64,000 nucleotides of DNA from Elioraea rosea. GTDB lineage: Bacteria > Pseudomonadota > Alphaproteobacteria > Acetobacterales > Acetobacteraceae. Where the stretch lies: NCBI RefSeq assembly GCF_007644105.1, contig NZ_VFAC01000002.1:1-64000 (forward strand). The letters run 5' to 3'. Below, one piece after another: positions 5,385 through 22,196 of this stretch (positions within the stretch are counted from its first letter, which is position 1; each line of letters opens with the position of its first letter). The notes under the pieces were generated by a model. It was not told where the DNA came from and ran no database searches. It saw nothing but the letters and a program-made list of their open reading frames with translations. A program made the translations under genes and the position numbers.

Positions 5385-6647
5385 ATGAGAAGGTCTTTTC
5401 TTGCGGCAGCAGCCGCCATCGCGCTTGCCATGCCGGGGGCCGCGCTGGCGCAGGAGACGATCAAGATCGGCATCCTCGTTGCACTGGAGGGCGCGTTCAG
5501 CGAAGGCGGTCGTGACGGCGTGCGGGGGGTCGAGCTCGCGCTCCGGCAGGTGAACAACACCGCAGGCGGCCGCAGGATCGAGACCATCGTGGCGCCGACC
5601 GACACGCGCCCCGATACCGCCGTGCGCCAGGCCCGCAAGCTGATCGAGCAGGACGGCGTCGATTTCGTGATCGGCCCTCTCTCCGGCTCGGAAGGCATCG
5701 CGATCCGCGACTATGCCAAGACCGTTCCGGACAAGACCTTCATCAACGGCAGCTCCGGCGCGCTCGAGACCACATGGGTCGATCCGGCGCCCAACTTCTT
5801 CCGCTTCCACACCGACGGGGCCCAGTGGGGTGTCGGGCTCGGGCAGTACGTCGTCGAACAGAAGCGCTGGCGGCGCATCGCCACCGTGTCGGCCGACTAT
5901 TCGTTCGGGTATACGAACTTCCTCGGCTTCGCAGTCGATTTCTGCCGCGCGGGCGGAGACATCGTGCGCCGCTTCTGGGTACCGCTTGGCGCCTCGGATT
6001 ATGCAGGCGTGATCGCGCAGCTTCCGGACGACGTCGATGCCATCTATCTAGGCCTCGGCGGGACGGACGCGATCAACTTCCTGAACCAGTACGCGCAGGC
6101 GGGCGCGCAGATGAACTTCATCGGCGGCACCATCATGGCCGACCAGACGGTGCTGACCTCCCGGGGCCGCGCCAAGGACCTGCTGATCGGCACGCCGACC
6201 TCCGGCATGATCTCCGACGAGAACCCGGATGCCGCGTGGACGGCCTACGTGGCCGCCTATCGCGGCGCCTTCCCCGAAGGACAGCGCTTCCCCTCCCCGA
6301 CCATCTTCGCCACCGGCTACCACATCGCGACGCTCGCGGCGATCAAGGCGCTGAACGATGTCAGCGGTGATCTCTCCGGCGGGCAGCGGCGCTTCCAGCA
6401 GGCGCTCGCGACGATGGAGCTCGACACCCCGCTCGGCAAGATCAAGCTCGACCAGAACCGTCAGGCCATCGGGCCGGTGTTCGTCAACGAAGTGACGGCA
6501 CGGGCAGACGGCTCGCTGTTCAACCGCATGGTCAAGCGCGCCGACAACGTGACGCAGACATTGGGGCTGACGCCGGAGCAGTTCCGCGCGCTCGGCCTGC
6601 CCTCGCGCGACAATCCTGACTGCGCGCGCCTCAGGGCCGGGCGCTGA
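5385..6647 (+). CDS. ABC transporter periplasmic binding protein, branched-chain amino acid type
   Basis: A 420-residue protein with a clear Sec signal peptide (MRRSFLAAAAAIALAMPGAA, cleavage about after ALA at residue 22). A two-lobed Leu/Ile/Val-binding-protein-like fold follows. The motifs IKIGILVALEGAFSEGGRDG, FVIGPLSGSEG and TFINGSSGA are typical of the Peripla_BP_6 family. This family also binds amides, urea and aromatic acids, so the ligand need not be an amino acid. It opens the large plus-strand operon, and a 13-bp hairpin follows its stop. The enzymes downstream suggest an aromatic or heterocyclic substrate, which is inference only. Confidence 0.9.
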   Translation: MRRSFLAAAAAIALAMPGAALAQETIKIGILVALEGAFSEGGRDGVRGVELALRQVNNTAGGRRIETIVAPTDTRPDTAVRQARKLIEQDGVDFVIGPLSGSEGIAIRDYAKTVPDKTFINGSSGALETTWVDPAPNFFRFHTDGAQWGVGLGQYVVEQKRWRRIATVSADYSFGYTNFLGFAVDFCRAGGDIVRRFWVPLGASDYAGVIAQLPDDVDAIYLGLGGTDAINFLNQYAQAGAQMNFIGGTIMADQTVLTSRGRAKDLLIGTPTSGMISDENPDAAWTAYVAAYRGAFPEGQRFPSPTIFATGYHIATLAAIKALNDVSGDLSGGQRRFQQALATMELDTPLGKIKLDQNRQAIGPVFVNEVTARADGSLFNRMVKRADNVTQTLGLTPEQFRALGLPSRDNPDCARLRAGR

Positions 6648-6698: not shown

Positions 6699-6797
6699 CA
6701 TGCCGCTCCGCATGACGACAATGCCGAGGAATTTGTGCGGGGCCATGCGTCACGCAGAGAGCGCACCGCGCCCGTGTCACCCCTGGGAAGGGCGGTG

Positions 6798-7811
6798 ATG
6801 GCTGCCCTGGCGCGCGCCAATCCCATCGTAGTGCTGCTGGCAGGGCTCCTGGTCGCAGCGCTGCTGTGGCTGATCATCGCGCCCTGGCCGCCAGGGGTCA
6901 CGGGCGTGATGGGGCCGAAGCGCGTCTTCCTCGCCGCGATCCTGTCCGGCATCACGCTCGGCGCGCTCTACTTCCTGGTGGCAAGCGGGTTCACCCTCAT
7001 CTTCGGCCTGATGCGCAACGTCAACCTCGCGCACGGCTCGCTCTATCTGCTCGGCGGATACATCGGCTTCGAGGTTGCCGACAGGACGGGCTCCTGGCTG
7101 CTCGCCTTCCCCGTCGTGTTCATCATCGTCGCCGCGCTTGGCGTCGTACTGCAGTACGTCGTCTTCCGCCGCATGGAGGGCGAGGAACTGCGGCAGACTC
7201 TGGTCACCATCGGGCTCTCGATCGTGATCGCAGACCTGCTGCTGTGGATTTGGGGAGGCAAGTCCTACCAGATCCTGACCCCCGATTTCCTGTCCGGCCC
7301 GATGGACCTGCCTCTGATCACTGCCGTAAGGTCGGACGGCGCGGCGGTGTATCTCCGCTATCCGCGCGTCAGGATCTGGATCCTGATCGCGGCGGTGGTG
7401 GTGGGTGTGGCGATGTGGCTCGTGATCAACCGCACCAGGATCGGCATGCTGATCCGTGCCGGGGTGGACGACCGCGAGATGCTCGCAGCCTCCGGCCTGC
7501 CGATCCAGCTCGTGTTCGTGCTCGTCTTCGCCTTCGGCGCAGGGCTTGCCGGAGTAGGGGGGATCGTCGGCGGAACATTCCAGTCGATCTCTCCAGGGGA
7601 GGACACGCGCTTCCTGCTTGCGAGCCTGGTTGTCGTCATCGTTGGCGGCATGGGGTCGATCCCTGGCGCGGCACTCGGGGCGCTGATCATCGGCCTCGCA
7701 GAGCAGATCGGCCTCGTCTACGCGCCGACCTATTCGGTCGTGTTCACCTTCCTCATCATGGCCGCAGTGCTTGCCTTCCGGCCGCAGGGTCTCTTGGGAG
7801 CGAGGCGCTAG
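6798..7811 (+). CDS. livH: Branched-chain-type ABC transporter permease, LivH-like
   Basis: A 337-residue integral membrane protein with about eight hydrophobic segments. It carries the LivH family motifs GLMRNVNLAHGSLYLLGGY (residues about 70-90) and GGMGSIPGAALGALIIGLAE near the C-terminus. The ATG at 6798 follows GGGAAGGG at good spacing. A GTG at 6735 with its own GAGGAA is an alternative that would add 21 polar residues. The next gene begins directly after the stop. It pairs with LivM to form the pore of the importer. Confidence 0.88.
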   Translation: MAALARANPIVVLLAGLLVAALLWLIIAPWPPGVTGVMGPKRVFLAAILSGITLGALYFLVASGFTLIFGLMRNVNLAHGSLYLLGGYIGFEVADRTGSWLLAFPVVFIIVAALGVVLQYVVFRRMEGEELRQTLVTIGLSIVIADLLLWIWGGKSYQILTPDFLSGPMDLPLITAVRSDGAAVYLRYPRVRIWILIAAVVVGVAMWLVINRTRIGMLIRAGVDDREMLAASGLPIQLVFVLVFAFGAGLAGVGGIVGGTFQSISPGEDTRFLLASLVVVIVGGMGSIPGAALGALIIGLAEQIGLVYAPTYSVVFTFLIMAAVLAFRPQGLLGARR

Positions 7812-8870
7812 ATGGCCGTGGCAGGAGAAGCGCGGCTTCCCGCCGGGTCAGCGAGCGGGGGGTGGCTTGCGCGGGTGCCGCCGGCACTTTGGGTGCTGGC
7901 GCTGCTAGCCCTGCTGATGCCCGCCTTCGCCAACAACTTCATCCTGTTCCAGGTCTTCGGCTGGACCTTCATCCTCGGGATGATCGCGCTGTCACTGATG
8001 TTCCTTGCCGGCTACGGCGGCATGGTGAGCCTCATACAGATGACGGTCGCGGGGCTTGCCGGCTATCTCGTCGCCATTCTCGGCCCCTCGGGCACCGAAC
8101 AGGTCAGCCTCGGGCTGCCGTGGTGGATCAACATCCCCGCGGCAGTCCTGATCGCGACCTTCTTCGGAACGCTTGTCGGCGCGCTCGCGGTGCGCACCGA
8201 AGGCATCTACACGATCATGATCACGCTCGCGATCGCGGCGGCGTTCTTCTACTTCACGCGGCAGAACTACACGATCTTCAACGGGTACTCCGGCTTCAGC
8301 CTGGTCGTGCCGCCGCAGCTTTTCGGCATCGATTGGCGCCAGCCGGTGGCGTTCTACTACCTCACTCTGGGCTGCGCGCTGCTCTCCTACGCGGCAGTCG
8401 TGTATGTCGCACGCTCGCCCTTCGGGCTTGCCCTGCAAGGCGTGCGCGACAATGCCCGCAGAATGGCTGCCCTTGGCTACAACGTCGTCTGGCACAGAAT
8501 CCTCGCCTACGGCTTTGCCGCCGTGATCGCCTCCTTCGGCGGCATCCTCCTCGTCTGGCAGAACGCGCAGATCGCCCCGGGCACGGCCGGGCTGCCGGCC
8601 GTCATCGACATCCTCGTCATCGCTGTGGTCGGCGGGCTACGCCACCCGGTGGGGCCGTTCATCGGCGCCTTCATCTACGTGCTTCTGAGCTCCTTTGCCC
8701 CCGATATCCTGCAGGCGCTCGGCCTCGCACCGGACCGCTTCAAACTGATCGTCGGCATCGGGTTCCTCGCCGTCGTCTATTTCTCGCCCGATGGCGTGCT
8801 CGGCCTCTGGGAGCGCGCGATGGCGCGGCGTCGCAACCGCACCGACCCGCTGACGGGCTTGCCGCGATGA
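7812..8870 (+). CDS. livM: Branched-chain-type ABC transporter permease, LivM-like
   Basis: A 352-residue membrane protein, with its ATG directly adjoining the livH stop. LivM features are GYGGMVSLIQMTVAGLAGY near residue 73, LALQGVRDNARRMAALGYNV in the cytoplasmic coupling loop near residue 205, and a GGLRHPVGPFIGAF segment near residue 275. About ten hydrophobic segments are visible. It overlaps the ATPase gene by ATGA, so it is translationally coupled to it. Confidence 0.9.
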   Translation: MAVAGEARLPAGSASGGWLARVPPALWVLALLALLMPAFANNFILFQVFGWTFILGMIALSLMFLAGYGGMVSLIQMTVAGLAGYLVAILGPSGTEQVSLGLPWWINIPAAVLIATFFGTLVGALAVRTEGIYTIMITLAIAAAFFYFTRQNYTIFNGYSGFSLVVPPQLFGIDWRQPVAFYYLTLGCALLSYAAVVYVARSPFGLALQGVRDNARRMAALGYNVVWHRILAYGFAAVIASFGGILLVWQNAQIAPGTAGLPAVIDILVIAVVGGLRHPVGPFIGAFIYVLLSSFAPDILQALGLAPDRFKLIVGIGFLAVVYFSPDGVLGLWERAMARRRNRTDPLTGLPR

Positions 8871-9661
8871 TGGAGCAGCTGGGCGATGCTGCGACGCGCC
8901 TCGGCTCCGTCAGTTCGGGCAATGCCCTCGAACTGCGCGGCGTGACGCGCATGTTCGGTGCTCTCTCCGCCATCTCCGACGTGACGATGACCATCCGCCC
9001 CGGCGAGCGCCGCGCCGTGCTCGGCTCAAACGGGGCGGGCAAGACGACGCTGTTCAACTGCATCACCGGCGATGTGCCGCCGACCTCCGGCACGATCCGC
9101 CTCTTCGGCGAGGATGTCACCCGCTTTCCGGCCCATGAGCGTATCCGCCGCGGCCTGAGGCGCACGTATCAGATCTCGCTCCTCTTCAGCGGTCTTTCGG
9201 TGGCCGACAACGTCTATCTCGCGTGCCGCGGCGTTTCGCGCTGGCGGTTCTCGCTGCTTCGCCCGCGGAGCGGCGATCCGCTTCTGGGGCGTGCCGATGA
9301 GCTGATCGAGGCGGTGCACCTGACGCGGGCGCGCGACAGGCTTGTCTCCGAACTCTCCTACGGCCAGCAGCGCCAGCTCGAGATCGCGCTCGCCCTCGCC
9401 GGCGCGCCGCGCTTCATCCTCTTCGACGAGCCTGCCGCCGGCCTTTCGCCGACGGAACGGCGAGACCTCGTCGACATCCTGACAAACCTGCCGCGCCACA
9501 TCGGCTTCATCATCATCGAGCACGACATGGATGTCGCGCTGCGCGTGGCCGAAAGCGTTTCGATGATGCACAACGGCCGTGTGTTCAAGGAGGGCACGCC
9601 GGCCGAGATCGAGAACGATGCCGAGGTGCAGGCCCTCTATCTCGGGGGCAGCCATGGCTAG
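8867..9661 (+). CDS. livG: Branched-chain-type ABC transporter ATP-binding protein, LivG-like
   Basis: A 264-residue ABC ATPase with Walker A (GSNGAGKTT, about residue 50), a signature region [11 protein letters not shown], Walker B ([13 protein letters not shown]) and the LivG-typical [15 protein letters not shown]. The frame is open far upstream through the permease genes, but homology starts at ATG 8867, which overlaps the livM stop. Its own end overlaps the next gene by eight bases. The first of the two ATPases of the importer. Confidence 0.9.
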
Positions 9662-11858
9662 GGGAACCGGCACGCTCGCGCTCGAGATCCGCGGCCTCAA
9701 CGTCTTCTACGGCGCGAGCCACGCGCTGCAGGGCGTCGATCTCAGCCTCGAGGGCGGCATCCTCTCCGTCGTCGGCCGCAACGGCATGGGCAAGACGACG
9801 CTCTGCAAGGCCATCATGGGGCTCGTTCCCGTTGCGTCCGGGACGATCCGCTTCGCTGGCCAGTCGCTCGTCGGGCTCTCGACATCGGAGATTGCCCAGC
9901 TCGGCGTCGGGTACGTTCCCCAGGGCAGGCGGCTGTGGCGGTCCCTCACCGTCGACGAGCACCTCCGCATGGTGGCGCGCCCGGGCGGCGCATGGACCGT
10001 CGAGCGGATCTACACGACCTTCCCCCGTCTCGCGGAACGGCGCGGCAATGGCGGAGCCCAGCTCTCCGGCGGCGAGCAGCAGATGCTCGCGATCTCCCGC
10101 GCACTGCTCCAGAACCCGCGCCTCCTGGTGATGGACGAGCCGACAGAAGGTCTCGCGCCGGTCATCGTCGAACAGGTCGAGGCACTGATCTACCGCCTCG
10201 CCGATGAGGGGGACGTCGAGGTGCTGCTCATCGAGCAGAACATCGGCGTCGCCTGCGCCACGGCAGACCAGGTCGCGGTCATGGTGAACGGACGGGTGAA
10301 CCGGATCGTCTCCGCGCGGGCGCTCGCGACGGATCTCGAACTGCAGCAGCGCCTTCTCGGTGTCGGTCGCCACGGCCACGAGGATGAGCTTGTGTCGCCC
10401 GTGGCCAGCGCCTCCGCCGCTCCTGCCAGCGCCGCAGCGGCGGTGGGCGTGACGAAGGTCTATCTCTCGAACCCCGTCAGACCGACGCGATGGTCCCAGC
10501 CCGCGCCCGTCGAACAGATCGAGCGTGCCGCGCGCGTGCTCACCACGGGGCTCCTGCCCGCATCCGCGTCCGCTGCCGCTCAGGCCGAGCTCCGCCCCCT
10601 CGCTGCGCCGGGTGAACGCGTCGTCCTCGTGGCCGGAACCTGCGACACGAAGGGCGAGGAGCTTCGGTTCCTTCGCGACATCATCCGCGAAGCTGGCTTG
10701 GCGGTACGCCTCGTCGATCTCTCGACGAGCGGCCGGCATTCCGGCGCCGAGATTCCCGCCCACCTCATCGCCGCCTTCCACCCGCGCGGCGCCTCGGCCG
10801 TGTTCACCGGGGACCGGGGCATTTCAGTCGCCGCGATGACGGAGGCGTTCTCGCGCTGGATCGCCCGGCAGGACGGCGTTGCCGGCATCATCTCGGCCGG
10901 CGGCTCGGGCGGCACGGCGATGGTGGCGCCCGCGATGCGCGCCCTGCCGATCGGCGTACCGAAGCTCATCGTCTCGACCGTCGCCTCGGGCGAGGTGAGC
11001 CGCTATGTCGGCCCCTCCGACATCATGATGATGCACTCGGTGGCCGACGTTCAGGGCCTGAACGCCATTACGCGCGAGGTCCTGTCAAATGCCGCTCACG
11101 CCATGGCGGGCATGGTGGCAGCGCGGCTTGCGGCGCCGCGCCAGGTGGACACGCGCCCCACAGTCGCCCTCTCGATGTTCGGTGTCACGACGCCCTGCGT
11201 GCAACAGACGGTGGCGTTGCTCGGCGAGGGCTATGACTGCCTCGTCTTCCACGCCACAGGCATCGGCGGCCAGTCTATGGAGAAGCTGATCGACAGCGGC
11301 AAGGTCAGCGCGGTGATCGACGTCACGACCACCGAGGTGGCCGACCTGCTGATGGGCGGCATCTTTCCCGCCACCGAGGATCGTTTCGGCGCCATCATAC
11401 GCCGGCGCGTGCCCTATATCGGCTCCGTCGGCGCGCTCGACATGGTGAATTTCGGCCCGCCCGAGACGGTGCCGGAGAAGTATGCGGGCCGCCTCCTTTA
11501 CCAGCACAACCCGCAGGTGACGCTGATGCGCACCACCGCCGAGGAGAACGCGCGGATGGGCCGCTGGATTGGCGAGCGGCTGAACGCGATGGAAGCGCCT
11601 GTGCGGTTCTTCCTGCCCGAGGGCGGCGTCTCGGCGCTCGATGCACCGGGGCAGCCCTTCGATGACCGCACGGCACGAGCGGCACTGTTCACCGCCGTCG
11701 AACAGACCGTGCGCCAGAGCCCCACGCGCCAGGTGATCCGCGTTCCACACCATATCAATGCGCCCGAGTTCGCCGCCGCCCTCGTTGCTGCCTTCCGCGC
11801 GCTGCATGGCGCAGACCCGGGCCCGCGCCGCGTGGCGCGCAAGGAGAGACCACGATGA
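9654..11858 (+). CDS. LivF-type ABC ATPase fused to a Tm-1-like (UPF0261) domain
   Basis: A 734-residue two-domain protein. Residues about 8-240 are a complete LivF-type ABC ATPase (Walker [10 protein letters not shown], signature LSGGEQQ, Walker [11 protein letters not shown], then [11 protein letters not shown]). An alanine- and serine-rich linker of about 75 residues follows. From about residue 322 ([20 protein letters not shown]) the rest matches the Tm-1-like ATP-binding family UPF0261/COG5441: [19 protein letters not shown], then [14 protein letters not shown]. Tm-1 is the tomato protein that inhibits tobamovirus replication; the bacterial members have no settled function. There is no frameshift or internal stop, and the Tm-1-associated TIM-barrel gene overlaps the end. 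The fusion ties this enigmatic domain to substrate import. Confidence 0.88.
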
Positions 11859-12694
11859 TGCCGCGCCAGCAGATCCTCGCGCGGCTCCGTGCCAAGCTCG
11901 CCCGCGGCGAGGCGATCGTCGGCGGCGGAGCCGGTACCGGGCTTTCTGCCAAGTGCGAGGAGGCGGGAGGCATCGACCTCATCGTCATCTACAACTCCGG
12001 GCGCTATCGCATGGCCGGGCGCGGATCCCTCGCAGGGATGCTGGCCTATGGCGACGCCAACGCCATCGTCGTCGAGATGGCGGCCGAGGTGCTTCCGGTC
12101 GTGCGGCACACGCCCGTGCTTGCCGGAGTGAACGGCACCGACCCGTTCCGCAGCATGGAGGTGTTCCTCGATGAGATCCGTCGCCTCGGCTTCTCTGGCG
12201 TGCAGAACTTTCCGACCGTCGGGCTGATCGACGGCGTGTTCCGCCAGAACCTCGAGGAGACCGGGATGTCCTATGGCCTCGAGGTGGACATGATCGCCAA
12301 GGCGCATGCGCGCGATCTGCTGACGACGCCTTATGTGTTCAACGCAAGCGAGGCGGAGGCGATGGCAAAGGCAGGTGCCGACATCATCGTCTGCCATCTT
12401 GGGTTGACGACGGGCGGCACGATCGGGGCCGAGACCGCACTGACGCTCGCGGAGTGCCCGGCGCTGGTCGACGCCTGGGGAGAAGCCGCGCTCAAGGTGA
12501 ACCCGGAGATCCTCATCCTCGTCCATGGCGGGCCGGTGGCCGAGCCGGAGGATGCTGACTACGTGCTGGAGAGAAGCACGCTCTGCCACGGATTCTATGG
12601 AGCCTCCTCCATGGAACGGCTGCCGACCGAGCGCGCGCTGACGGAACAGACGCGCGCCTTCACGAGACTGCGCACCACGCCCGGCAAGGTCTGA
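11855..12694 (+). CDS. Phosphoenolpyruvate hydrolase-family TIM-barrel protein (COG5564)
   Basis: A 279-residue protein beginning [20 protein letters not shown]. Diagnostic stretches are [40 protein letters not shown] and [19 protein letters not shown]. This is the TIM-barrel family often annotated as PEP hydrolase-like or TIM-barrel signal-transduction protein. It is routinely next to or fused with UPF0261 domains and equals the C-terminal domain of plant Tm-1. Here the Tm-1 partner is the C-terminal half of the preceding fusion, and the genes overlap by ATGA. The reaction is not established; a role in processing the imported compound is inference. Confidence 0.85.
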
Positions 12695-12724: not shown

Positions 12725-15310
12725 ATGGTGACAGGAGCCTTCATCGGCCAGCTGATCCTATGGATCGTGGTCGCCGTCATCGTCATCGCCGTCGTCTACT
12801 GGGTGATGCAGTTTCTCTACCGTCGCTCGACGAAGGAGGTGGCGTTCGTACGCACCGGCTTCCTCGGCCAGAAGGTGGTGATCGACGGCGGTGCGTTCGT
12901 CTGGCCGATCATCCACGACATCACCCCCGTCAACATGAACACCCTGCCCTTGCGCGTGATGCGAACCCGGCAGGATGCGCTGATCAGCAAGGACCGGATG
13001 CGCATCGACATGGAGGCGGAGTTCTACGTGCGCGTGCGTCCCGAGCCCGAGGCGGTGGCGACCGCGGGGTCCACGCTTGGCCGCCGCACGCTCGAGCCCG
13101 AGCGCCTGCATGCCCTGCTCGCCGGCAAGTTCGAGAGCGCGCTCCGCGCCGTCGCGGCCGAGATGACGATGAGCGAGATGCACGAGCAACGCGCGCAGTA
13201 CGTGGCGCGGGTGCGCGACGTCGCCCAGGAGGATCTAGCCAAGAACGGGCTCGAGCTCGAGAGCGTGGCGATCATGGACATCGACCAGACGCCGCTCGAG
13301 TACTTCAACCCGTCCAACCGGTTCGATGCGGAAGGCCTGACCGCGCTGATCCGCGACATCGAGGAGAGGCGGAAGCTCCGCAACGACATCGAGCAGACGG
13401 CGATGATCGCGATCCGCACCCGGAACCTCGAGGCCGAGCGCGAAGCGCTGGAGATCGAGCGGCAGAGCGAGGAGGCGAGGCTCTCGCAGGAGCGCGAGGT
13501 CGAGTTCCGCCGCGCCCAGCAGCGGGCCGAGCTCGCACGCGAACGGGCGGCGCGCGAGACCGACGCGGAGGAGGCGCAGATCAGCGCCCGCGAAGCCATC
13601 GAGAAAGCGCGGATCGCCAATGACCGGGCGGTCGCCGAGGCGCGCATCGCCTCCGAGCGCGAGGTGCGTGCGCGCGAGATCGAGCGGCAGAAGCTGATCG
13701 AGGCCGAGGAGATCGCCGCACGCGAAGCCATCGAGAAGGCGCGGATCGCCAACGAGCGCGCGGTCGCCGAGGCACGCATTGCATCCGAGCGCGAGGTGCG
13801 CGGCCGCGAGATCGAGCGGGAGAAGCAGCTCGAAGCCGAGGAAATAGCCGCACGCGAAGCGATCGAGCAGGCGAAGATCGCGCAGGAGCGCGCAATTGCC
13901 GAAGCCCGGATCGCCAAGGAGGAGGAGATCCGCCGGCGCGAGATCGCACAGCGCAGGGCGGTCGACGCCGAGGAGATCGCCGCACGCGAGGCGACGGAGA
14001 AGCTCCGCATCGCCGAAGCCGCCGTCGTCAGCGAGACACGCATCGCGGAGGATCAAAGGATCCGCTCTCTCGAGATCGAACGGACGCGCGCCGTCGAGGC
14101 GGCTGAGATCGCGGCGCAGCAGGCAACCGAAGCGGCACGGATCGCACGCGAGAAGGCACTTGCCGCCGCGCGAATCTCTGCCGACGCGATGACGCGGGAG
14201 CAGGAGATCGCCCGCGACAAGGCTCTCGACGAGGCTCGCGTGGCGGCGCAGGAGGCCGTGCGCTCGCGCGAGATCGCCCGCGAGCGCGAGCTCGAGGCCG
14301 CCGAGATCGCCAAGCGCAAGGCGGTTGAGGAGGCCGAGCAGGCACGCATCGTCGCGCTGGCCGCGGGGCGCGCCGAGGTCACCGCGGCCGAGGCTTCCGT
14401 TCGCCAGGCGCAGATCGTCGCCCAGCGCGACGTGGAAACGGCCGAGGTGGAGCGAGACCGAGCCCTCGAGGCGGCTCGCATCGAGCGCAAGCGGTCGCTC
14501 GAACAGCTCGAGATCGCGCGGATGCAGGCGCTGCGCGAGGCGGAGATCGAGAGCCGCGAGGACATCGAGCGCGCACGCATCGCTTCCGAACGCGGCCTCG
14601 ACGAGATCCGCATCGGGCACGAGACCGAGAGGCGACGCCTCGAGGTCGAGCGCGAGCGCATCGTCGAGACGGTGCAGCTCGAGAAGGCGATCGCCCTCGC
14701 GCGGAAGTCTCTCGAGGAGAGCGCCGCACGCATCGAGGCGGATCAGGCCCGCGCGCGGGTAGCGGAGGCGGAGGAGAAGATACGCACCGTGCGCGAGACG
14801 GAGATGGCCTCGCGCCGGCAGAAGATCGACCTCCTGCTCGCGGAGAAGGCAGCGGCGGAGATCAAGGTCGCCGCTGAAGCGGAGAAGGTACGCCGGGAGG
14901 TCGAAGCAGAGGCGCAGCGGCTCCTGAACGAGGCCGAGAACGTCCTGACCGACCCTGCCCGTTCCTCGCTGTTCCGGCGCAAGCTTCTCGAACATGTCGA
15001 GGGGATCGTCGCAGCCTCCGTCAAGCCACTGGAGAAGATCCAGGAGATCAAGATCATGCAGCTCGATGGGCTCGGCGGCATGGGCGGCGAGGGCCGCGTC
15101 GGGAGCCCGACGGACGAGGTGATCACCTCCGCGCTGCGCTATCGCGTGCAGGCCCCCCTGATCGATGGGCTGCTCTCCGACATCGGTATCGAAGGCGGCA
15201 ACCTCGCCAAGCAGGGCGGGCTGATGCGCGAGGCCTCGGATATGCAGCGCATCGCCACGGAGGCGCGCAAGAGCGCCGCGAAGCCCGAGGGTGGAGAGGG
15301 GAAGAAGTAG
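12725..15310 (+). CDS. Flotillin-like SPFH protein with a long 11-residue-repeat coiled coil
   Basis: An 861-residue protein. Residues about 8-30 form one N-terminal membrane segment, and about 35-220 an SPFH/band-7 domain (EVAFVRTGFLGQKVVIDGG, then ALISKDRMRIDMEAEFYVRV). A charged helix of about 450 residues follows, then a small flotillin-type C-terminal domain (SLFRRKLLEHVEGIVAASVK). From residue 288 the helix is built of 11-residue units ending in (R/E)IA. YqiK-like flotillins are about 550 residues, so the coiled coil is expanded. A ribosome site GGAGACAGGAGA precedes the ATG. Flotillins assemble membrane scaffolds; here one could organise the transporter and enzymes of this operon, which is inference. 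Confidence 0.85.
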   Translation: MVTGAFIGQLILWIVVAVIVIAVVYWVMQFLYRRSTKEVAFVRTGFLGQKVVIDGGAFVWPIIHDITPVNMNTLPLRVMRTRQDALISKDRMRIDMEAEFYVRVRPEPEAVATAGSTLGRRTLEPERLHALLAGKFESALRAVAAEMTMSEMHEQRAQYVARVRDVAQEDLAKNGLELESVAIMDIDQTPLEYFNPSNRFDAEGLTALIRDIEERRKLRNDIEQTAMIAIRTRNLEAEREALEIERQSEEARLSQEREVEFRRAQQRAELARERAARETDAEEAQISAREAIEKARIANDRAVAEARIASEREVRAREIERQKLIEAEEIAAREAIEKARIANERAVAEARIASEREVRGREIEREKQLEAEEIAAREAIEQAKIAQERAIAEARIAKEEEIRRREIAQRRAVDAEEIAAREATEKLRIAEAAVVSETRIAEDQRIRSLEIERTRAVEAAEIAAQQATEAARIAREKALAAARISADAMTREQEIARDKALDEARVAAQEAVRSREIARERELEAAEIAKRKAVEEAEQARIVALAAGRAEVTAAEASVRQAQIVAQRDVETAEVERDRALEAARIERKRSLEQLEIARMQALREAEIESREDIERARIASERGLDEIRIGHETERRRLEVERERIVETVQLEKAIALARKSLEESAARIEADQARARVAEAEEKIRTVRETEMASRRQKIDLLLAEKAAAEIKVAAEAEKVRREVEAEAQRLLNEAENVLTDPARSSLFRRKLLEHVEGIVAASVKPLEKIQEIKIMQLDGLGGMGGEGRVGSPTDEVITSALRYRVQAPLIDGLLSDIGIEGGNLAKQGGLMREASDMQRIATEARKSAAKPEGGEGKK
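13586..14311 (+). repeat. In-frame hendecad (33-bp) tandem repeat with 132-bp higher-order unit
   Basis: Within the flotillin-like gene, residues 288-529 can be written as 22 consecutive 11-residue units without a gap, for example AREAIEKARIA, NERAVAEARIA, SEREVRGREIE, REKQLEAEEIA. Four units make a 44-residue (132-bp) superunit. The first two superunits (13586-13717 and 13718-13849) differ at about 17 of 132 bases by my count; the third is more diverged. Eleven-residue periodicity with good phasing continues, with a shift, to roughly residue 660. Confidence 0.85.
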
Positions 15311-15313
15311 GCC

Positions 15314-15751
15314 ATGCCGCGCGTCTACGTCTCCTCCGTCATCGAAGCACCGGCAGCCACCGTGTGGGAGCGGATCCGCGATTTCAACGCCCTGCCCCGC
15401 TGGCACCCGCGCATCCGCGACAGCCGGATCGAGAACGGCGAGCCTCCCGACCGCGTCGGCTGCGTACGCGACTTCCACCTGCAGAATGGCGACCGGATTC
15501 GCGAACGCCTCCTCGGCCTGTCCGATTTCGACATGTTCTGCACGTACTCGATCCTGGAATCGCCGATGCCGATCACCGACTATGTCGCGACGATCAGACT
15601 CACGCCGATCACCGATGGCGACCGCACCTTCGCGGAGTGGACGGCCGAGTTCGAGTGCGCCCCCGAAGCCGCGGCGGATCTCGTCACGGGGATCGGGCAG
15701 AACGTGTTCCAGGCCGGGTTCGATGCGCTCAAGCGCCAGATGTCGGGCTGA
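15314..15751 (+). CDS. SRPBCC (START-like / polyketide-cyclase-type) protein, first copy
   Basis: A 145-residue protein with the SRPBCC pattern: an opening strand VYVSSVIEAPAATVWERIRD, LPRWHPRI in the first helix-turn, and a C-terminal long helix ending NVFQAGFDALKRQM. It lies three bases after the flotillin-like gene and three before a paralogue. The family forms a deep hydrophobic ligand cavity and includes CoxG-like proteins linked to molybdenum hydroxylases. A role in binding the pathway substrate or in handling the hydroxylase is plausible; no catalytic residue can be assigned. Confidence 0.85.
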   Translation: MPRVYVSSVIEAPAATVWERIRDFNALPRWHPRIRDSRIENGEPPDRVGCVRDFHLQNGDRIRERLLGLSDFDMFCTYSILESPMPITDYVATIRLTPITDGDRTFAEWTAEFECAPEAAADLVTGIGQNVFQAGFDALKRQMSG

Positions 15752-15754
15752 GCC

Positions 15755-16204
15755 ATGCCGAAGGTGATCCGCAGCACCGTGATCGACTATCCGATCGACG
15801 CAGTGTGGGCCGTGCTGCGCGACTTCAACGGACATGACCGCTGGCACCCCGCGGTGGCAGACAGCATCATCGAGCGCGGCCAGACATCCGACCGCGTCGG
15901 TTGCGTCCGACGCTTCCATCTGAAGGATGGTTCGGAACTGCGCGAAATGCTTCTGACTCTGTCAGATGCGGATACGGCGTTCTCCTACTGCCTCCTGGAG
16001 ACGCCGGTGCCGCTTCTCAACTACGTCGCCCATGTGCGGCTCGCACCGGTGACGGATGGAGACAGGACGTTCTGGCATTGGGAGAGCCGCTTCGATACGC
16101 CTTCCGGGCGCGAACGGGAGCTTGCCGACATGGTCGGGCGGGAGATCTATGAGGGCGGCTTCGCCGCGATCCGCGCCCACATGGCGGCGGGGGGCACGGC
16201 ATGA
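15755..16204 (+). CDS. SRPBCC (START-like) protein, second copy
   Basis: A 149-residue paralogue of the preceding protein. The two share RDFN near residue 23, RWHP at about residue 30, DRVGCVR, the stretch ITDGDRTF/VTDGDRTF, and a C-terminal helix (REIYEGGFAAIRAHM). Tandem duplication followed by divergence is the simplest reading. The start follows the previous stop by three bases, and its own stop overlaps the FAD-subunit gene by ATGA. Two nonidentical copies may form a heterodimer or bind two intermediates; that is inference. Confidence 0.85.
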   Translation: MPKVIRSTVIDYPIDAVWAVLRDFNGHDRWHPAVADSIIERGQTSDRVGCVRRFHLKDGSELREMLLTLSDADTAFSYCLLETPVPLLNYVAHVRLAPVTDGDRTFWHWESRFDTPSGRERELADMVGREIYEGGFAAIRAHMAAGGTA

Positions 16205-17007
16205 CGCCGGCGGTGGAAACCTATGCCACCCTCGCGGAGGCAGCCCGCGCCATGGCGTCGGGAGACGGCGTCTATCTCGCGGGCGGAACACTCCTAATGC
16301 GCGCCGTCAATGCCGGAGAGGTGCCACGGCGGATCATCCGAACGACGGACCGAACGTTGCGCGAGATCGCCCCCGTGGGGGATGCCGTACGCATCGGCGC
16401 CGGCGTGACGATGGTCGAACTGCTCCAGAACCGTGAGCTGGCCTTTCTCCACGCCGCGGCGCGCCAGGTTGGCGGGCCGCAGATCCGCGCGATGGGAACG
16501 GTGGGCGGGAACCTGTTCGCGCCGCACCCCTATGGCGACCTCGCCGTGGCTCTGCTCGCGCTCGGTGCAAGGGTGGTGATGGCGGGACAGGCGGGTGCCC
16601 GTCCGCTTGCCGACCTTCTGCGCGACAGGGCGAGGACTGGGCTGGTTGCGGCAATCGAATGCCCACGCCCGCGCGATGCGCGTAGCTTCGGCTTCCTCAA
16701 GGTCTCCCGCGTGCACCCGCGCGGCGCGTCGGTGGTGTCAATCGGCGCCCACTTGCCGCGCGAGGGCGGGCGCATTCGTGGCGCTCGCATCGCATTCGGG
16801 GCCATGGGTGCAGCACCGCTCCAGGCTTCCGCGGCCGAGCGGGCGCTCGAGGGCCAGGCGCTCGATGCTGCGGCAATCGCGCGCGCCGGCGCCGTAGCCG
16901 CACAGGGCATCGATCCGCCGAGCGACTCCCTGGCCTCGTCCTGGTACCGGCGGGAGGTGTCGGGCGTGCATCTCCGCCGGCTCCTCGAGAGCATGGAGCG
17001 CGGCTGA
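16201..17007 (+). CDS. Molybdenum hydroxylase FAD-binding subunit (CoxM/CutM type)
   Basis: A 268-residue FAD-binding subunit of the xanthine dehydrogenase/CO dehydrogenase family. The FAD-contacting motifs are present: AGGTLLMRA near residue 27 and MGTVGGNLFAPHPYGD near residue 100. The C-terminal CO-dehydrogenase flavoprotein-like domain follows with KVSRVHPRGASVVSIGA. It transfers electrons from the iron-sulphur subunit to an acceptor. It overlaps both neighbours, in the gene order FAD, FeS, Mo. It is slightly shorter than the usual 280-300 residues but otherwise intact. Confidence 0.88.
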   Translation: MTPAVETYATLAEAARAMASGDGVYLAGGTLLMRAVNAGEVPRRIIRTTDRTLREIAPVGDAVRIGAGVTMVELLQNRELAFLHAAARQVGGPQIRAMGTVGGNLFAPHPYGDLAVALLALGARVVMAGQAGARPLADLLRDRARTGLVAAIECPRPRDARSFGFLKVSRVHPRGASVVSIGAHLPREGGRIRGARIAFGAMGAAPLQASAAERALEGQALDAAAIARAGAVAAQGIDPPSDSLASSWYRREVSGVHLRRLLESMERG

Positions 17008-17480
17008 TGGCAAAGAAGCCGGTCACCTTCACCCTCAATGGGACCGAACGCGCCGCCTTCGCCGATCCTGGCCAGAACCTGCTTGACCTGTTGCGGCGCG
17101 GCGTGGGTGACCTGACGCCCAAGTATGGCTGCGCGCAAGGCGGTTGCGGCGCCTGCACGGTGCTGATCGACGGCGCGCCACACCTCTCCTGCCTGGTCCT
17201 CGGCGAGACGGTGGAGGGGCGCGCGGTGGAGACGGCGGCCGGCCTTTCTGGCGCGGCCCTGCACCCGTTGCAGGAAGCGTTCATGGTGCATTTCGCGGCG
17301 CAGTGCGGCTACTGCACACCCGGAATGCTGATGGCGGCGAAAGCCCTGCTCGACCAGACGCCGAAGCCGACGCGCGAGGAGGTCGAGGAAGCGATCTCGG
17401 GCAATCTCTGCCGCTGCACCGGCTATGAGCCGATCATCGCGGCGATCCTTTCCGTCGCGAACGGGAGCGTGCGCGCATGA
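17007..17480 (+). CDS. Molybdenum hydroxylase 2Fe-2S subunit (CoxS type)
   Basis: A 157-residue protein with both expected clusters. The plant-ferredoxin-like cluster is bound by C42, C47, C50 and C62 (YGCAQGGCGACTV). The second cluster is bound by C100, C103, C135 and C137 (CGYCTPG and NLCRCTGY). All eight ligands are present and the length is typical. Its ATG overlaps the FAD-subunit stop by one base and its stop overlaps the large-subunit start by four. It relays electrons between the molybdenum site and FAD. Confidence 0.95.
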   Translation: MAKKPVTFTLNGTERAAFADPGQNLLDLLRRGVGDLTPKYGCAQGGCGACTVLIDGAPHLSCLVLGETVEGRAVETAAGLSGAALHPLQEAFMVHFAAQCGYCTPGMLMAAKALLDQTPKPTREEVEEAISGNLCRCTGYEPIIAAILSVANGSVRA

Positions 17481-19189
17481 GCGATGGCATGATCGAGTTC
17501 CGCAAGGAGTTCTTCGCCGATGAGCGTGACGACACGCTGAACGAGATCGGCAAGCCCACGCGGCGGCAGGACATCCTCGGCCACGTCACCGGGCGATCGC
17601 CCTTCTATGACGATCACCTGTTCCAGGGGCTGCTGCACATGCGCTGCGCCCGGTCGCCGCACCATGCTGCGCGTATCCGCCGCATCGATACGTCCGAAGC
17701 CGAGCGGACCCCGGGCGTCGTCCGCGTGCTGATCGGGCGTGACGTACCGCTGAACCTCAACACGCTTCTGTCGCTTCTGGATTTCGGCATCGATGACGAG
17801 CCCGTGCTCGCGACCGACCGCGTGCGCTACCGCGGCGAACCCGTGGCGGCGGTGGTCGCAGACAGCGAGGCGACGGCCCGGGCCGCAGCGGCGAAAGTGC
17901 GCGTGGAGTGGGAGGTCCTGCCGCACGTGCTCGACGTCGAGGAGGCCATCCGCCCCGGCGCGCCTGTGGTGCTCGACATCTACCCCGGCAACCGCTTCAT
18001 CTACCATGGGAAGTACGACCACCAGAAACTGCGCTACGGCGATGTCGAGGCGGCGTTGCGGGCGGCCGATCATGTCGTCGAAGGTCGCTACCAGATGTCG
18101 CCGATCGAGCAGGCGCCGATCGAGACCTGCGGCGCCATCGCCGCGCCGGAGACGAATGACCGCTTCGTCTGCTACTCCTCCACACAGGCGCTGTTCTTCT
18201 CGCTCGCCACCTCGTCGAAGCTCCTGCGCCTGCCCTCGAGCAGGCTGCATTTCATCGGCGGAACGGTAGGCGGAGGGTTCGGCGGCAAGGTCGATTCCAT
18301 CCACGAGCCGCTCGCCATCCTCGGCGCGATGCTGACCGGACGCCCCTGCAAATACATGTGGGACCGCGAGGAGGAGATGCAGGTCGGCGCACCGCGGGGG
18401 GCGGAGCGCTGGTACATCAGCGACGGCGTGATGCGCGACGGCAGGATCGTTGCGCGGAAATTCGTCGGCTACTTCGATTCGGGCGCGTACACGCGGCTTT
18501 CGTCCTACGCGATCATCAAGGCGGTCGGCCACCTGCCCGGGCCCTATACGATCCCGAACGTTTCGGCCGACGTCTCCTGCGTCTACACCAACCGCACGCC
18601 GGCAACAGCGATGCGCGGCTTCGGCATCACGGGCGTGGATTTCGCGATTGAGGCGCACATGGACAAGGTTGCAGAGGTCGTCGGGATGAACCCGATCGAC
18701 TTCCGCATCCTCAACGCGTATCGCGACGGCGACATGAAGGCGCATCGTCGGTCGGCGAAGAACTGCGCGCTCATCGAGTGCTGCCAGGTGGTTGCGGAGA
18801 AGGCGGGGGTTCAACTCTCCAACGCCGCCCGCACGGCCTCCTCGCGCCAGGGTGGCGGCGGCGACCGCGGCCGCCTGCCGGCACATACGGCACTGGACCA
18901 GTCAGGCCGCGTCGAGGGGTTCGACACGGGCAGCTACGCGCGCAAGGCGGGGCAACGGCCGGCGACGCAGCATCAGGTGCCGGCACCTGTCGCAGCGCGG
19001 GCGAGCCCCGCAACCCAGGCTGCGTCAGTCCAGTCGAGGCCGCGGGTCGAAGAGACCCGCGTGGCGCCGTCGGCATCGCAGACGACACAGCAGCCAGCGC
19101 CACCGCAGCAGCACCCCGCGCCGCCATCGGCCCCGCCCCGTTCTGGCCCGATCCGCTTCTCCTCCCTCTCCGGCTTCAGGAGGCGGTGA
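17477..19189 (+). CDS. Molybdenum hydroxylase large subunit, N-terminal half, with low-complexity tail
   Basis: A 570-residue protein. Residues about 25-440 match the first half of the roughly 780-residue molybdopterin subunit of xanthine-dehydrogenase-type enzymes: GKPTRRQDILGHVTGRSPFY, VRYRGEPVAAVVAD, GGTVGGGFGGKVD, and AMRGFGITGVDFAIEAHMD. Homology stops near residue 445. The last 120 residues are rich in Ala, Pro, Gln and Arg and end RFSSLSGFRRR. The CO-dehydrogenase active-site loop (AYRCSFR) is absent, so the substrate is not CO. The rest of the catalytic domain is in the next, overlapping gene, and the products presumably assemble together. Confidence 0.85.
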   Translation: MSDGMIEFRKEFFADERDDTLNEIGKPTRRQDILGHVTGRSPFYDDHLFQGLLHMRCARSPHHAARIRRIDTSEAERTPGVVRVLIGRDVPLNLNTLLSLLDFGIDDEPVLATDRVRYRGEPVAAVVADSEATARAAAAKVRVEWEVLPHVLDVEEAIRPGAPVVLDIYPGNRFIYHGKYDHQKLRYGDVEAALRAADHVVEGRYQMSPIEQAPIETCGAIAAPETNDRFVCYSSTQALFFSLATSSKLLRLPSSRLHFIGGTVGGGFGGKVDSIHEPLAILGAMLTGRPCKYMWDREEEMQVGAPRGAERWYISDGVMRDGRIVARKFVGYFDSGAYTRLSSYAIIKAVGHLPGPYTIPNVSADVSCVYTNRTPATAMRGFGITGVDFAIEAHMDKVAEVVGMNPIDFRILNAYRDGDMKAHRRSAKNCALIECCQVVAEKAGVQLSNAARTASSRQGGGGDRGRLPAHTALDQSGRVEGFDTGSYARKAGQRPATQHQVPAPVAARASPATQAASVQSRPRVEETRVAPSASQTTQQPAPPQQHPAPPSAPPRSGPIRFSSLSGFRRR

Positions 19190-20211
19190 TGACGCTGCAC
19201 CGCGGCCGCGGCTTCGCTGCGATCAACTACCCCATCGGCATGAACCTCGGAGGCGATCCCTCGCAGGCGCTCGTTCACTCGAACCCCGATGGCAAGTTCA
19301 CCGTCACCCTCTCCTCGATCGATCTAGGGCAGGGGATGAAGTCGGTCACCCGACAGATCGCTGCCGAAACGCTCGGCATCCCCGTCGAGGATGTCTACGT
19401 CGATACGGCCGACAGCGACACGGGCCCGCACTGCATGGGGAGCTTCGCCTCGCGCGGCACGCACCGCGTCGGCAATGCCGTGATCCAGGCAGCGCAGGAG
19501 GCGCGCGCCGTGATGCTCGATGCAGCCGCAGAGGAGCTCGAGGTCGATCCGGCGGATCTGGTGACGGACGGTCAGGGCAACATCCATGTGCGCGGCGCAC
19601 CATCCCGGTCGATCACTACGATGGCCGCCTGCCAGGCCGCGCAGTTCCGCCAGGGCAAGACCGTCTCTGGACGGGGAATTTTCCTTATCCCCCTTTCGGA
19701 AGTCGACCCCGATACGGGCGAGATGACGCCGGTCTCCTGCTTCGCGCACGCAGCGATGATCGTGGAGGTCGAGGTCGATGACGAGACGGGGGAGGTTTCC
19801 GTCACCGACATGAAATCTGCCTACGAGGTGGGGCGCGCGCTGAACCCGAAGCTCGTGGAGCAGCAGCTTCGCGGCGGCGCGTGGATGGGGATGAGCCATG
19901 CCGCCTGGGAGACGACCGAGCCCTACTATCCGGATCGCGCGCACGGCCCGGTCGATTTCTCCGGCTACCTGATGCCTGGGCCGGGCGATCTCGCCCCGCA
20001 CCATATCTCGATTCTCGAACGACCCGCACCCGATGGGCCCTTCGGCGGCAAGGGGCCGGGGGAGATGTGCGCCAACCCCGTGCTCCCGGCCGTGGTGAAC
20101 GCGATCTACGATGCCGTCGGCGTGCGCATCGACGACCTTCCGGTCACCCCGGAGAAAGTGCTGCGCGGCCTGCGCGCCCAGGGCGGCGCCAAGCCGCGCC
20201 GGCGCCTTTGA
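19189..20211 (+). CDS. Molybdenum hydroxylase large subunit, C-terminal half
   Basis: A 340-residue protein that resumes the molybdopterin subunit where the previous gene leaves it: INYPIGMNLGGDPSQALVH, then SSIDLGQGMKSVTRQIAAET and GSFASRGTHRVGNAVI. Near the C-terminus FGGKGPGEMCANPVLPAVVN carries the glutamate expected to be the catalytic base (GPGE). Its ATG shares one base with the previous stop and has a strong AGGAGG just upstream, inside the preceding gene's 3' end. That argues for a genuine separate cistron rather than a frameshift. The frame is open further upstream, but that part overlaps the other half and lacks homology. Confidence 0.85.
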   Translation: MTLHRGRGFAAINYPIGMNLGGDPSQALVHSNPDGKFTVTLSSIDLGQGMKSVTRQIAAETLGIPVEDVYVDTADSDTGPHCMGSFASRGTHRVGNAVIQAAQEARAVMLDAAAEELEVDPADLVTDGQGNIHVRGAPSRSITTMAACQAAQFRQGKTVSGRGIFLIPLSEVDPDTGEMTPVSCFAHAAMIVEVEVDDETGEVSVTDMKSAYEVGRALNPKLVEQQLRGGAWMGMSHAAWETTEPYYPDRAHGPVDFSGYLMPGPGDLAPHHISILERPAPDGPFGGKGPGEMCANPVLPAVVNAIYDAVGVRIDDLPVTPEKVLRGLRAQGGAKPRRRL

Positions 20212-20214
20212 GGC

Positions 20215-21096
20215 ATGGCGATCAGGCGCAGCATCGCTGGCCTGGGCGACCCGGGCGCCGTGGCGCGCGCGATGCGGGATGCGCAGTACATCGCCGACGA
20301 AGGTCTTGCCACCACTGCCTACCTCGCACTCGCGCTCGGCAAGCCTTTGCTGCTCGAGGGCGCGCCGGGCGTGGGCAAGACCGAGGCCTCCAAGGCGCTC
20401 GCCTCGGTGCTCGGGCGGGAACTGATCCGCCTTCAGTGCTACGAGGGCATCGATGCCGCGCACGCGCTCTACGAGTGGAACTTCCCTCGCCAGATGCTCG
20501 CGATCCGCCAGGCGGGGGATGCCTATGTGAACCTCTATGCAGACGAATACCTGATCGCGCGGCCGCTTCTGCTGGCGCTGCAGGCGCCGCGCCAGCGGCT
20601 TCTGCTCATCGACGAGATCGACAGGGCCGACCATGAGTTCGAGGCCTTCCTGCTGGAGTTCCTCTCCGACTTCACGATCTCCATCCCAGAGCGCGGCACG
20701 ATCCGTGCGGCGGAACCGCCGGTGGTCGTGCTGACGTCGAACCGCACGCGCGAGCTGCACGAGGCGCTTCGCCGGCGCTGCGTGTATCACTGGATCGGCT
20801 ATCCCGAGCCTGCGCTCGAGACGGATATCGTGATGATGCGCGCCTCCACGGTGGCGCGCGACACGGCCGAGCGCGTCGTCGCCGCGGTGAACCGGCTGCG
20901 CGCGGAGCCGCTCGCCAAGCCGCCGGGTGTTGCGGAAACGGTGGAATGGGCCGAGGCAGCGACCCTGCTTGCCGCGCAGGGGGCGGCCTGGCCGCGCGCC
21001 TTCGCCCGCGCGATCGGGGTCGCGCTGAAGGACCAGGACGATATCGCGTTTCTCGGGCCACGCCTCGATGCACTGCTATCGGAGGTGGCGTCATGA
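20215..21096 (+). CDS. coxD: MoxR-type AAA+ ATPase, CoxD-like maturation factor
   Basis: A 293-residue AAA+ ATPase of the MoxR group. It has Walker A (GAPGVGKTE, about residue 49), Walker B (LLLIDEIDRAD, about 124), sensor 1 (VVLTSNRTRELHEALRRR) and a C-terminal lid domain. Genes of this type beside molybdenum hydroxylases (coxD in Oligotropha) assist assembly or sulphuration of the metal site, working with a VWA-domain partner. That partner follows with an ATGA overlap. This supports the reading that the split hydroxylase is functional and needs dedicated maturation. Confidence 0.88.
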   Translation: MAIRRSIAGLGDPGAVARAMRDAQYIADEGLATTAYLALALGKPLLLEGAPGVGKTEASKALASVLGRELIRLQCYEGIDAAHALYEWNFPRQMLAIRQAGDAYVNLYADEYLIARPLLLALQAPRQRLLLIDEIDRADHEFEAFLLEFLSDFTISIPERGTIRAAEPPVVVLTSNRTRELHEALRRRCVYHWIGYPEPALETDIVMMRASTVARDTAERVVAAVNRLRAEPLAKPPGVAETVEWAEAATLLAAQGAAWPRAFARAIGVALKDQDDIAFLGPRLDALLSEVAS

Positions 21097-22196
21097 CGGC
21101 TCCCCGCGCGCTCGCCCCGTTCCTCGCGTTTCCGCGCGCGCTGCGCGAGGCCGGCTTTCCGGCTGCGCCTGAACAGACGCAGGACTTCATCGCGGCCGTC
21201 GGCCTCCTCGGGCCACGATCGCTCCGTGACGTGCGTCTTGCCGCACATGCTGTGTTCGGCCCGTCGCCTGATCGGCGCACGGCATTCGACGAGGTGTTCG
21301 ACCGCGTGTTTCTTGGCCGCGACATCGCAGCACCCATGCCCGGCGAGGTGGAGGATCTCCCCGCTGCCTTCGACGAGGCCGGCTTCGAGATCCTTCCCGA
21401 GGCAGAGTACACGGAGGAGGCCGGAGCGGAGGCAACGCAGGCGGAACGTCTTTCCCGCCGCGACTTATCCGAGATCGAGGCTGACGAGGCCGCACGCCGA
21501 CTGAGGCGCCGCGCCGCCGCCTCCCTGCCGCGCCGCCGCAGCCGCAGGCTGAGCGCGGGCTCCGGCCGTCTCGCCGATCCGCGCCGCGCGTTCCGCGAGA
21601 TGCTCCGCCGCGACGGCGAACTCACCGTCCTGCCGACCCGTCAGCGGCGGATGCGCCAGCGCCGCGTGCTTCTGCTGATCGATGTCTCCGGATCGATGAA
21701 GGCGGCGACGGCCGGCACGCTTCGCCTCGCCCACGCGCTCGTCCAGGCTGGGGAACGTGTCGAGGCCTTCACGATCGGCACGAGGCTCACGCGCATCACG
21801 CGCGCGCTGGCCCATCGCGAACCCTCTGCCGCTCTCACCCGCGCCTCCGGCCTGGTGGCGGACTGGGATGGCGGCACCAGGCTCGGCGAGGCGCTCGCGG
21901 TGTTCCTCTCCGTGCCGCGTTTCGCTTCGTTCGCGCGCGGCGCACTGGTCATCATTGTCTCGGATGGGCTCGAGCGCGGCGGGCCGGAGGCGCTGTCCTC
22001 CGCCATGGCGCGGCTGCGCGGGCTGGCCTGGGGCCTTCTCTGGCTCTCGCCGCTCGCGGCGGATCCGGCCTACAGGCCCGAGACGGGCGCAATGCGCGCG
22101 ATCCTGCCACTCCTCGACAGGCTGGGCGATGGAGGCAGCGGGGCTGCGATCGCGGAGGAGGTGCTCGGCTTCGGCAGGCGGGCGGGGAGCCGATGA
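21093..22196 (+). CDS. coxE: VWA-domain protein, CoxE-like maturation factor
   Basis: A 367-residue protein with an N-terminal helical region, a basic central stretch (RRLRRRAAASLPRRRSRR) and a C-terminal von Willebrand A domain. The metal-ion site motif LLIDVSGSMK lies near residue 195. Then come a DWDGGTRLGEAL loop with the conserved threonine/glycine-rich site and a VIIVSDGLERGG strand. This matches CoxE, the partner of the MoxR-type CoxD. It overlaps both neighbours by ATGA. Cytoplasmic; no signal or membrane segment. Confidence 0.88.
   Translation: MTAPRALAPFLAFPRALREAGFPAAPEQTQDFIAAVGLLGPRSLRDVRLAAHAVFGPSPDRRTAFDEVFDRVFLGRDIAAPMPGEVEDLPAAFDEAGFEILPEAEYTEEAGAEATQAERLSRRDLSEIEADEAARRLRRRAAASLPRRRSRRLSAGSGRLADPRRAFREMLRRDGELTVLPTRQRRMRQRRVLLLIDVSGSMKAATAGTLRLAHALVQAGERVEAFTIGTRLTRITRALAHREPSAALTRASGLVADWDGGTRLGEALAVFLSVPRFASFARGALVIIVSDGLERGGPEALSSAMARLRGLAWGLLWLSPLAADPAYRPETGAMRAILPLLDRLGDGGSGAAIAEEVLGFGRRAGSR

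Follow-up and report, generated by a model that had tools for sequence, protein, structure and literature searches.

The window, that is, the whole analysed stretch of 64,000 nucleotides of Elioraea rosea DNA (contig NZ_VFAC01000002.1), carries on its forward strand a gene (12725–15310) for an 861-aa protein that is a giant prokaryotic flotillin of the SPFH2 type, with orthologues at L020, L021, L060–L064 and other loci. Membership in the flotillins is firm. The SPFH (Band 7) domain at residues 38–196 (12836–13312) scores 58.4 bits against Pfam PF01145 (cut-off 23.6; E = 1.2e-15), and the flotillin C-terminal domain at residues 706–822 (14840–15190) scores 110.9 bits against PF15975 (cut-off 27; E = 5.6e-32), the gene being the only one in the genome with a PF15975 domain. 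A hydrophobic N-terminal helix at about residues 8–35 (12746–12829), which spans residues 3–36 in an AlphaFold2 model, is a probable membrane anchor. Because Arg and Lys residues follow this helix, the positive-inside rule would place the rest of the protein in the cytoplasm. E. coli YqiK, of about 553 aa, has a much shorter helix than the window protein, and YqiK-type flotillins are likewise SPFH2 flotillins with an N-terminal membrane segment. The initial annotation put the rod at about 300 residues longer than in such flotillins, which agrees with an excess of about 265–300 residues over the 558–596-aa relatives found. In its length and architecture, with the expansion lying between the SPFH and C-terminal domains, the protein matches the giant SPFH2b flotillins of approximately 800–1000 aa with a strongly expanded coiled-coil region that were described in 2009 (Hinderhofer et al., 2009, PMC2636767). 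YqiK has an NfeD-type partner (PMC2636767), whereas none was found for the window flotillin: PF01957 has no match in the whole genome and no NfeD-like gene occurs among the annotated neighbours, a search that divergent YqiJ/YuaF-type partners could escape. Since SPFH2 genes without NfeD are on record in the same source (PMC2636767), the missing partner does not exclude membership.

The flotillin gene lies in a long operon, all of whose genes are on the forward strand. Upstream are genes for the periplasmic binding protein of a Liv-type importer (5385–6647; Peripla_BP_6, E = 6.4e-55), two branched-chain-type permeases (6735–7811 and 7812–8870; BPD_transp_2), a LivF-type ATPase fused to a UPF0261 (Tm-1-like) protein (9654–11858, with an inferred start codon position; the same fusion is found in L021) and a PEP-hydrolase-like protein (11855–12694; PF09370, E = 7.4e-131) whose gene adjoins the flotillin in relatives too. 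Downstream are two SRPBCC (Polyketide_cyc2) proteins (15314–15751 and 15755–16204), the FAD subunit (16201–17007) and 2Fe-2S subunit (17007–17480) of a molybdenum hydroxylase, the two halves of its large subunit (17477–19189, MoCoBD_1, E = 4.9e-66; and 19189–20211, MoCoBD_2, E = 1.3e-58, with a start inferred from an ATGA overlap), a CoxD-like AAA ATPase (20215–21096) and a CoxE-like VWA protein (20946–22196). Orthologous loci in several alphaproteobacterial families keep the Liv-type transport genes, UPF0261, the PEP-hydrolase-like protein, the flotillin and the two SRPBCC proteins. Molybdenum-hydroxylase genes are found downstream of every giant form with enough downstream sequence. No such genes follow any of the 17 shorter flotillins that share the operon type, a few of whose loci hold little downstream sequence. 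On a tree of SPFH domains the giant forms require one or two changes, so the link between giant form and hydroxylase amounts to one or two events and is no statistical proof; the operon links flotillin and enzyme by association only. Sedimentitalea arenosa (Paracoccaceae; L021) has the whole operon at 65–80% identity and groups with Elioraea in the flotillin tree, and the operon has therefore probably moved horizontally. In the congener G001, PEP-hydrolase-like genes (72% and 32% identity) are present and a flotillin match is lacking; not every member of the genus therefore has the operon.

Between the two conserved domains, the interval 13586–14311 is in frame with the gene and encodes residues 288–529, which are exactly 22 × 11 residues. 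The 22 gapless 11-residue units that had been claimed for this interval are borne out by position j, which is Ile in 21 hendecads and Val in the remaining one; position e is Ile, Val or Leu in 19 of 22, and position k is Ala in 18 of 22. Self-identity of the array is 60% at a lag of 44 residues and 32% at a lag of 11 (mean across all lags, 16%). The periodicity analysis proposed in the initial annotation gave hydrophobic power of 11.7 at a period of 11/3 and 27.1 at a period of 5.5, each above all of 2000 shuffles (maxima 8.4 and 8.1, respectively). Power at a period of 3.5 is only 0.4, which rules out a heptad coiled coil; the periodicity is thus that of a hendecad coiled coil (11/3, not 7/2). 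The longest run of Ile, Leu, Val or Met at steps of 11 is 23 (500 shuffles: mean 3.5, maximum 7). Phased repeats continue past the interval, as had also been noted: beyond I528 the core isoleucine returns at I542, a 14-residue step (14306–14350) that is a single phase change (+3) of the hendecad register, and more diverged hendecads then run from residue 542 to about residue 663 (14348–14713). Helices at residues 202–409, 437–605 and 616–740 are predicted by AlphaFold2 from three sequences with modest confidence (pTM 0.22, monomer), a model that supports helicity and nothing further.

Superunits of 132 bp begin at 13586, 13718, 13850, 13982 and 14114. The first two share 115 of 132 nucleotides (87.1%, matching the earlier figure of about 87%), with 13 of the 17 differences at third codon positions, while identity is 71% for superunits 1/3 and 2/3, 61% for 3/4 and 48% for 4/5; Tandem Repeats Finder reports 2.5–3.2 copies of 132 bp. 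The proposed 44-residue superunits are therefore strong by identity in the first three and weak thereafter, and are clearest as a charge order at position i, directly before the isoleucine. This column reads RREERREEKREERREERREREE in the window, and its charge runs R,R,E,E, a 44-residue period that makes the superunit. Residues at i have the opposite charge two hendecads on in 18 of 20 cases in the window, a count reached by one of 2000 shuffles; in L063 (36/36) and L093 (39/40) no shuffle reaches the observed count. Where a single hendecad has been gained or lost, the charge order slips by one and then resumes. The signal is present per column; net charge over the whole rod has no plain period of 11–44 residues.

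Rod lengths were compared as the distance between two anchor motifs, RN.IEQ just after the SPFH domain and (I/V/L)ERARIA..RGL.E.R near the C-terminal domain, with EQLE or NEAEN at a constant offset where these were diverged. In 23 giant forms, comprising 22 intact genes and the gene of G002 (same genus), whose frame break lies past the anchors, the distance is always 11n+10, and ten lengths occur (307, 395, 461, 483, 505, 516, 527, 615, 648 and 659 aa). These ten lengths are a better count of independent evidence than the 23 genes, because the rows are related. The distance is 11n+7 in the giant L080 (414) and in short relatives (227 and 73), the shorter sister group included. The 37 hendecads of L080 are unbroken and the 14-residue step is missing, so the offset of 3 between 11n+10 and 11n+7 corresponds to that single step. 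Rod indels in a first four-way alignment measured 88, 11, 44, 22 and 33 residues. Across the giant orthologues with 11n+10, length has changed in evolution only in 11-aa steps. The comparison of repeat number between homologues thus revealed variation between genera in 11-residue units and none within the two best-sampled genera, where the distance is 483 in 6/6 genomes and 648 in 4/4. The short flotillins of the same operon type (L065–L071, L073, L095 and L096; 684–690 aa) share the upstream genes, the SRPBCC pair, the hendecads and a related charge order in which alternation at i is weaker. They differ in having one fixed length (227), no 14-residue step and no adjoining molybdenum hydroxylase.

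These features could be explained by a tall, membrane-anchored flotillin barrel that scaffolds a catabolic pathway, a reading to which we assign a probability of about 0.5. The N-terminal helix and SPFH domain would sit on the inner membrane, and the nearly continuous hendecad helix of about 500 residues would form one stave of a right-handed helical barrel whose far end is closed by the flotillin C-terminal domain. Each helix would touch its neighbours to the left and right through two hydrophobic stripes, and the R,R,E,E order at i could help to keep neighbouring helices in register. Units would be gained and lost by exchange between repeats of 33n bp, and only whole hendecads would survive, since other steps would rotate the stripes; such selection on the register would let barrel height evolve in steps of 11 residues (about 16 Angstrom). 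The content of the operon suggests this scaffolding role, the pathway comprising Liv-type import, UPF0261 and PEP-hydrolase-like enzymes, and SRPBCC proteins. In the giant clade the split molybdenum hydroxylase may in addition dock on the flotillin through a C-terminal tag.

The large subunit of this hydroxylase is split between its two MoCo-binding domains. Its first half terminates in a linker of 80–120 residues, variable and rich in proline, followed by the tag. The motif RFS(S/T)(V/I/L)(F/S)G.RRR forms the extreme C-terminus in 20/20 intact giant operons, a count that leaves out three loci that stop before it; the window copy reads RFSSLSGFRRR (approximately 19154–19186), and that of G002 reads RFSSLSGFRRH in error-prone sequence. 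In five genomes the DNA pattern of the tag occurs once per genome, and its codons vary synonymously. AGGAGG within the RRR codons can double as a ribosome-binding site in most genomes. The idea that the tag is no more than a ribosome-binding site for the gene that follows was rejected, as five genomes keep RRR while starting it with CGN codons and RFSS..G would be left unexplained. The tag is instead a candidate docking peptide, whose partner, judging from sequence, could be the flotillin, the AAA/VWA pair or the second half of the enzyme. There is nearly an even chance that it serves enzyme maturation through the AAA/VWA pair, or joins the enzyme halves, and is unrelated to the flotillin; the AAA and VWA genes lie directly downstream. 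Outside such an operon, the nearest split homologues are two in G231 (52% and 48% identity). They stop directly behind the domain and lack linker and tag, and no gene of this type for a flotillin, SRPBCC, AAA or VWA protein was found beside them; G231 itself is not among the flotillin-positive genomes. As AAA/VWA and flotillin are both missing there, these controls fit maturation as well and do not separate the options for the tag. Against this alternative, the enzyme halves of G231 manage with no tag, provided that they are functional, and a long, variable linker suits reaching a distant partner.

The 11-residue steps could also be mainly mutational, the product of unequal exchange in a DNA tandem repeat whose length has little functional meaning. 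Unequal exchange within a 33n-bp repeat gives steps of 11 without selection, the first three superunits share 71–87% of their nucleotides, and congeners differ by two superunits, the flotillin of G002 being shorter by exactly 88 residues. Superunit pairs within a species are as similar as cross-species pairs, which is consistent with homogenisation. This explanation is nevertheless rather unlikely. Quantisation holds over ten lengths and also where repeats are too diverged for slippage, length is constant within the best-sampled genera, the charge order is preserved over up to 47 hendecads and the sister group keeps one fixed length. The initial annotation had described growth of the array by recent tandem duplication. 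Gain and loss of units stands, in that length differences between orthologues are whole multiples of 11 residues; recency is not supported. Synonymous divergence (dS, Nei–Gojobori) between superunits 1 and 2 is 0.50, with a large error over 44 codons, compared with 0.56 (window vs. G002) and 0.67 (window vs. Elioraea thermophila, the nearest named genome, at 83% identity) in the SPFH region. Because these values are close and E. thermophila has the same hendecad count as the window, the duplication, or its last homogenisation, dates from about the time of the species splits. A recent strain-level expansion is likewise not supported by dS or by the constant length within genera.

A third possibility is a free-standing rod, a hendecad coiled coil of two or three strands that acts as a spacer and holds the C-terminal domain well away from the membrane. 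Straight or slightly right-handed bundles can be built from hendecads, and the rod sequence is highly charged and free of proline. This too is improbable, somewhat more so than a mutational origin of the steps. Position e falls at 33 degrees on the hendecad wheel and position j at 164 degrees, both with Ala-rich flanks, and such a pair of hydrophobic stripes, 131 degrees apart, fits a helix packed between two neighbours. The wall of the human flotillin-1/2 cage (PDB 9bq2, 9l3g) is a right-handed barrel of 44 parallel, side-by-side helices of 186 residues, with no heptads and with charge clusters between subunits (PMC11260169), and the window protein also has the C-terminal domain by which the human cage is closed. 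The stripes and the solved complex make a barrel wall likelier than a single rod. The hendecad helix claimed for this giant flotillin holds; the simple rod drawn from it is probably wrong. As the PDB match by sequence covers the SPFH domain only, barrel assembly of the wall would follow by analogy. Like the window protein, the human cage has a long wall helix without heptads, and its neighbouring helices are in charge contact; it differs in its shorter wall (186 vs. about 500 residues) and in attaching to the membrane by lipidation rather than by a transmembrane helix (PMC11260169). The human basket is 22 nm high and wall length is expected by its authors to set complex size (PMC11260169); by the same analogy, the roughly 500-residue wall would stand two to three times taller.

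An assembly artefact, which the initial annotation named as a possible refutation and for which the imperfect assembly of G002 might be cited, is highly improbable, since the repeat units are at least 13% different from one another, the hendecad count in E. thermophila is identical and the single-contig genomes G166, G396, G575 and G608 hold equally long or longer arrays. In the single-contig genome G002 (L015, L126), the permease, ATPase, UPF0261, flotillin, CoxM and CoxL-C homologues have frame breaks. True decay of its flotillin gene was rejected, indel errors in the assembly being likelier because six neighbouring genes are affected.

Compared with the giant SPFH2b flotillins already described, the window protein is alike in length and in its expanded coiled-coil region, but the passages of that account considered here make no mention of hendecads, quantised lengths, a charge period or this operon (PMC2636767), and lengths in the present set reach 1155 aa. 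A literature search, whose coverage left out most subscription journals, found no report of hendecad fine structure in giant flotillins and no paper tying flotillins to hendecads, Tm-1-like proteins, UPF0261/PEP hydrolase or this operon. What is added to the earlier description is quantisation in 11-residue units throughout the clade, the charge order and an operon with a tagged enzyme. The size of SPFH cages is believed to follow the length of the wall helix, and the clade offers a natural series with the same two ends and ten wall lengths in 11-residue steps, in which the charge order could explain register. The operon hints at what a bacterial flotillin might scaffold, and the conserved tail of the enzyme is a docking-peptide candidate that lends itself to testing. 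A bolder and doubtful proposal, less probable than any of the alternatives above except the artefact, is that giant flotillins are height-adjustable, membrane-anchored compartments in which a hendecad ruler with a 44-residue charge pattern determines the height of the barrel, and that the hydroxylase is drawn into or onto this barrel through its dedicated C-terminal peptide, beside the importer that feeds it; if true, this would be a flotillin-based metabolic microcompartment.

On the reverse strand, an open frame of 894 aa (13235–15919) lies antisense to the flotillin gene. Similar long antisense frames are found in L020 and L021, and the frame is probably a by-product of high G+C codon usage.
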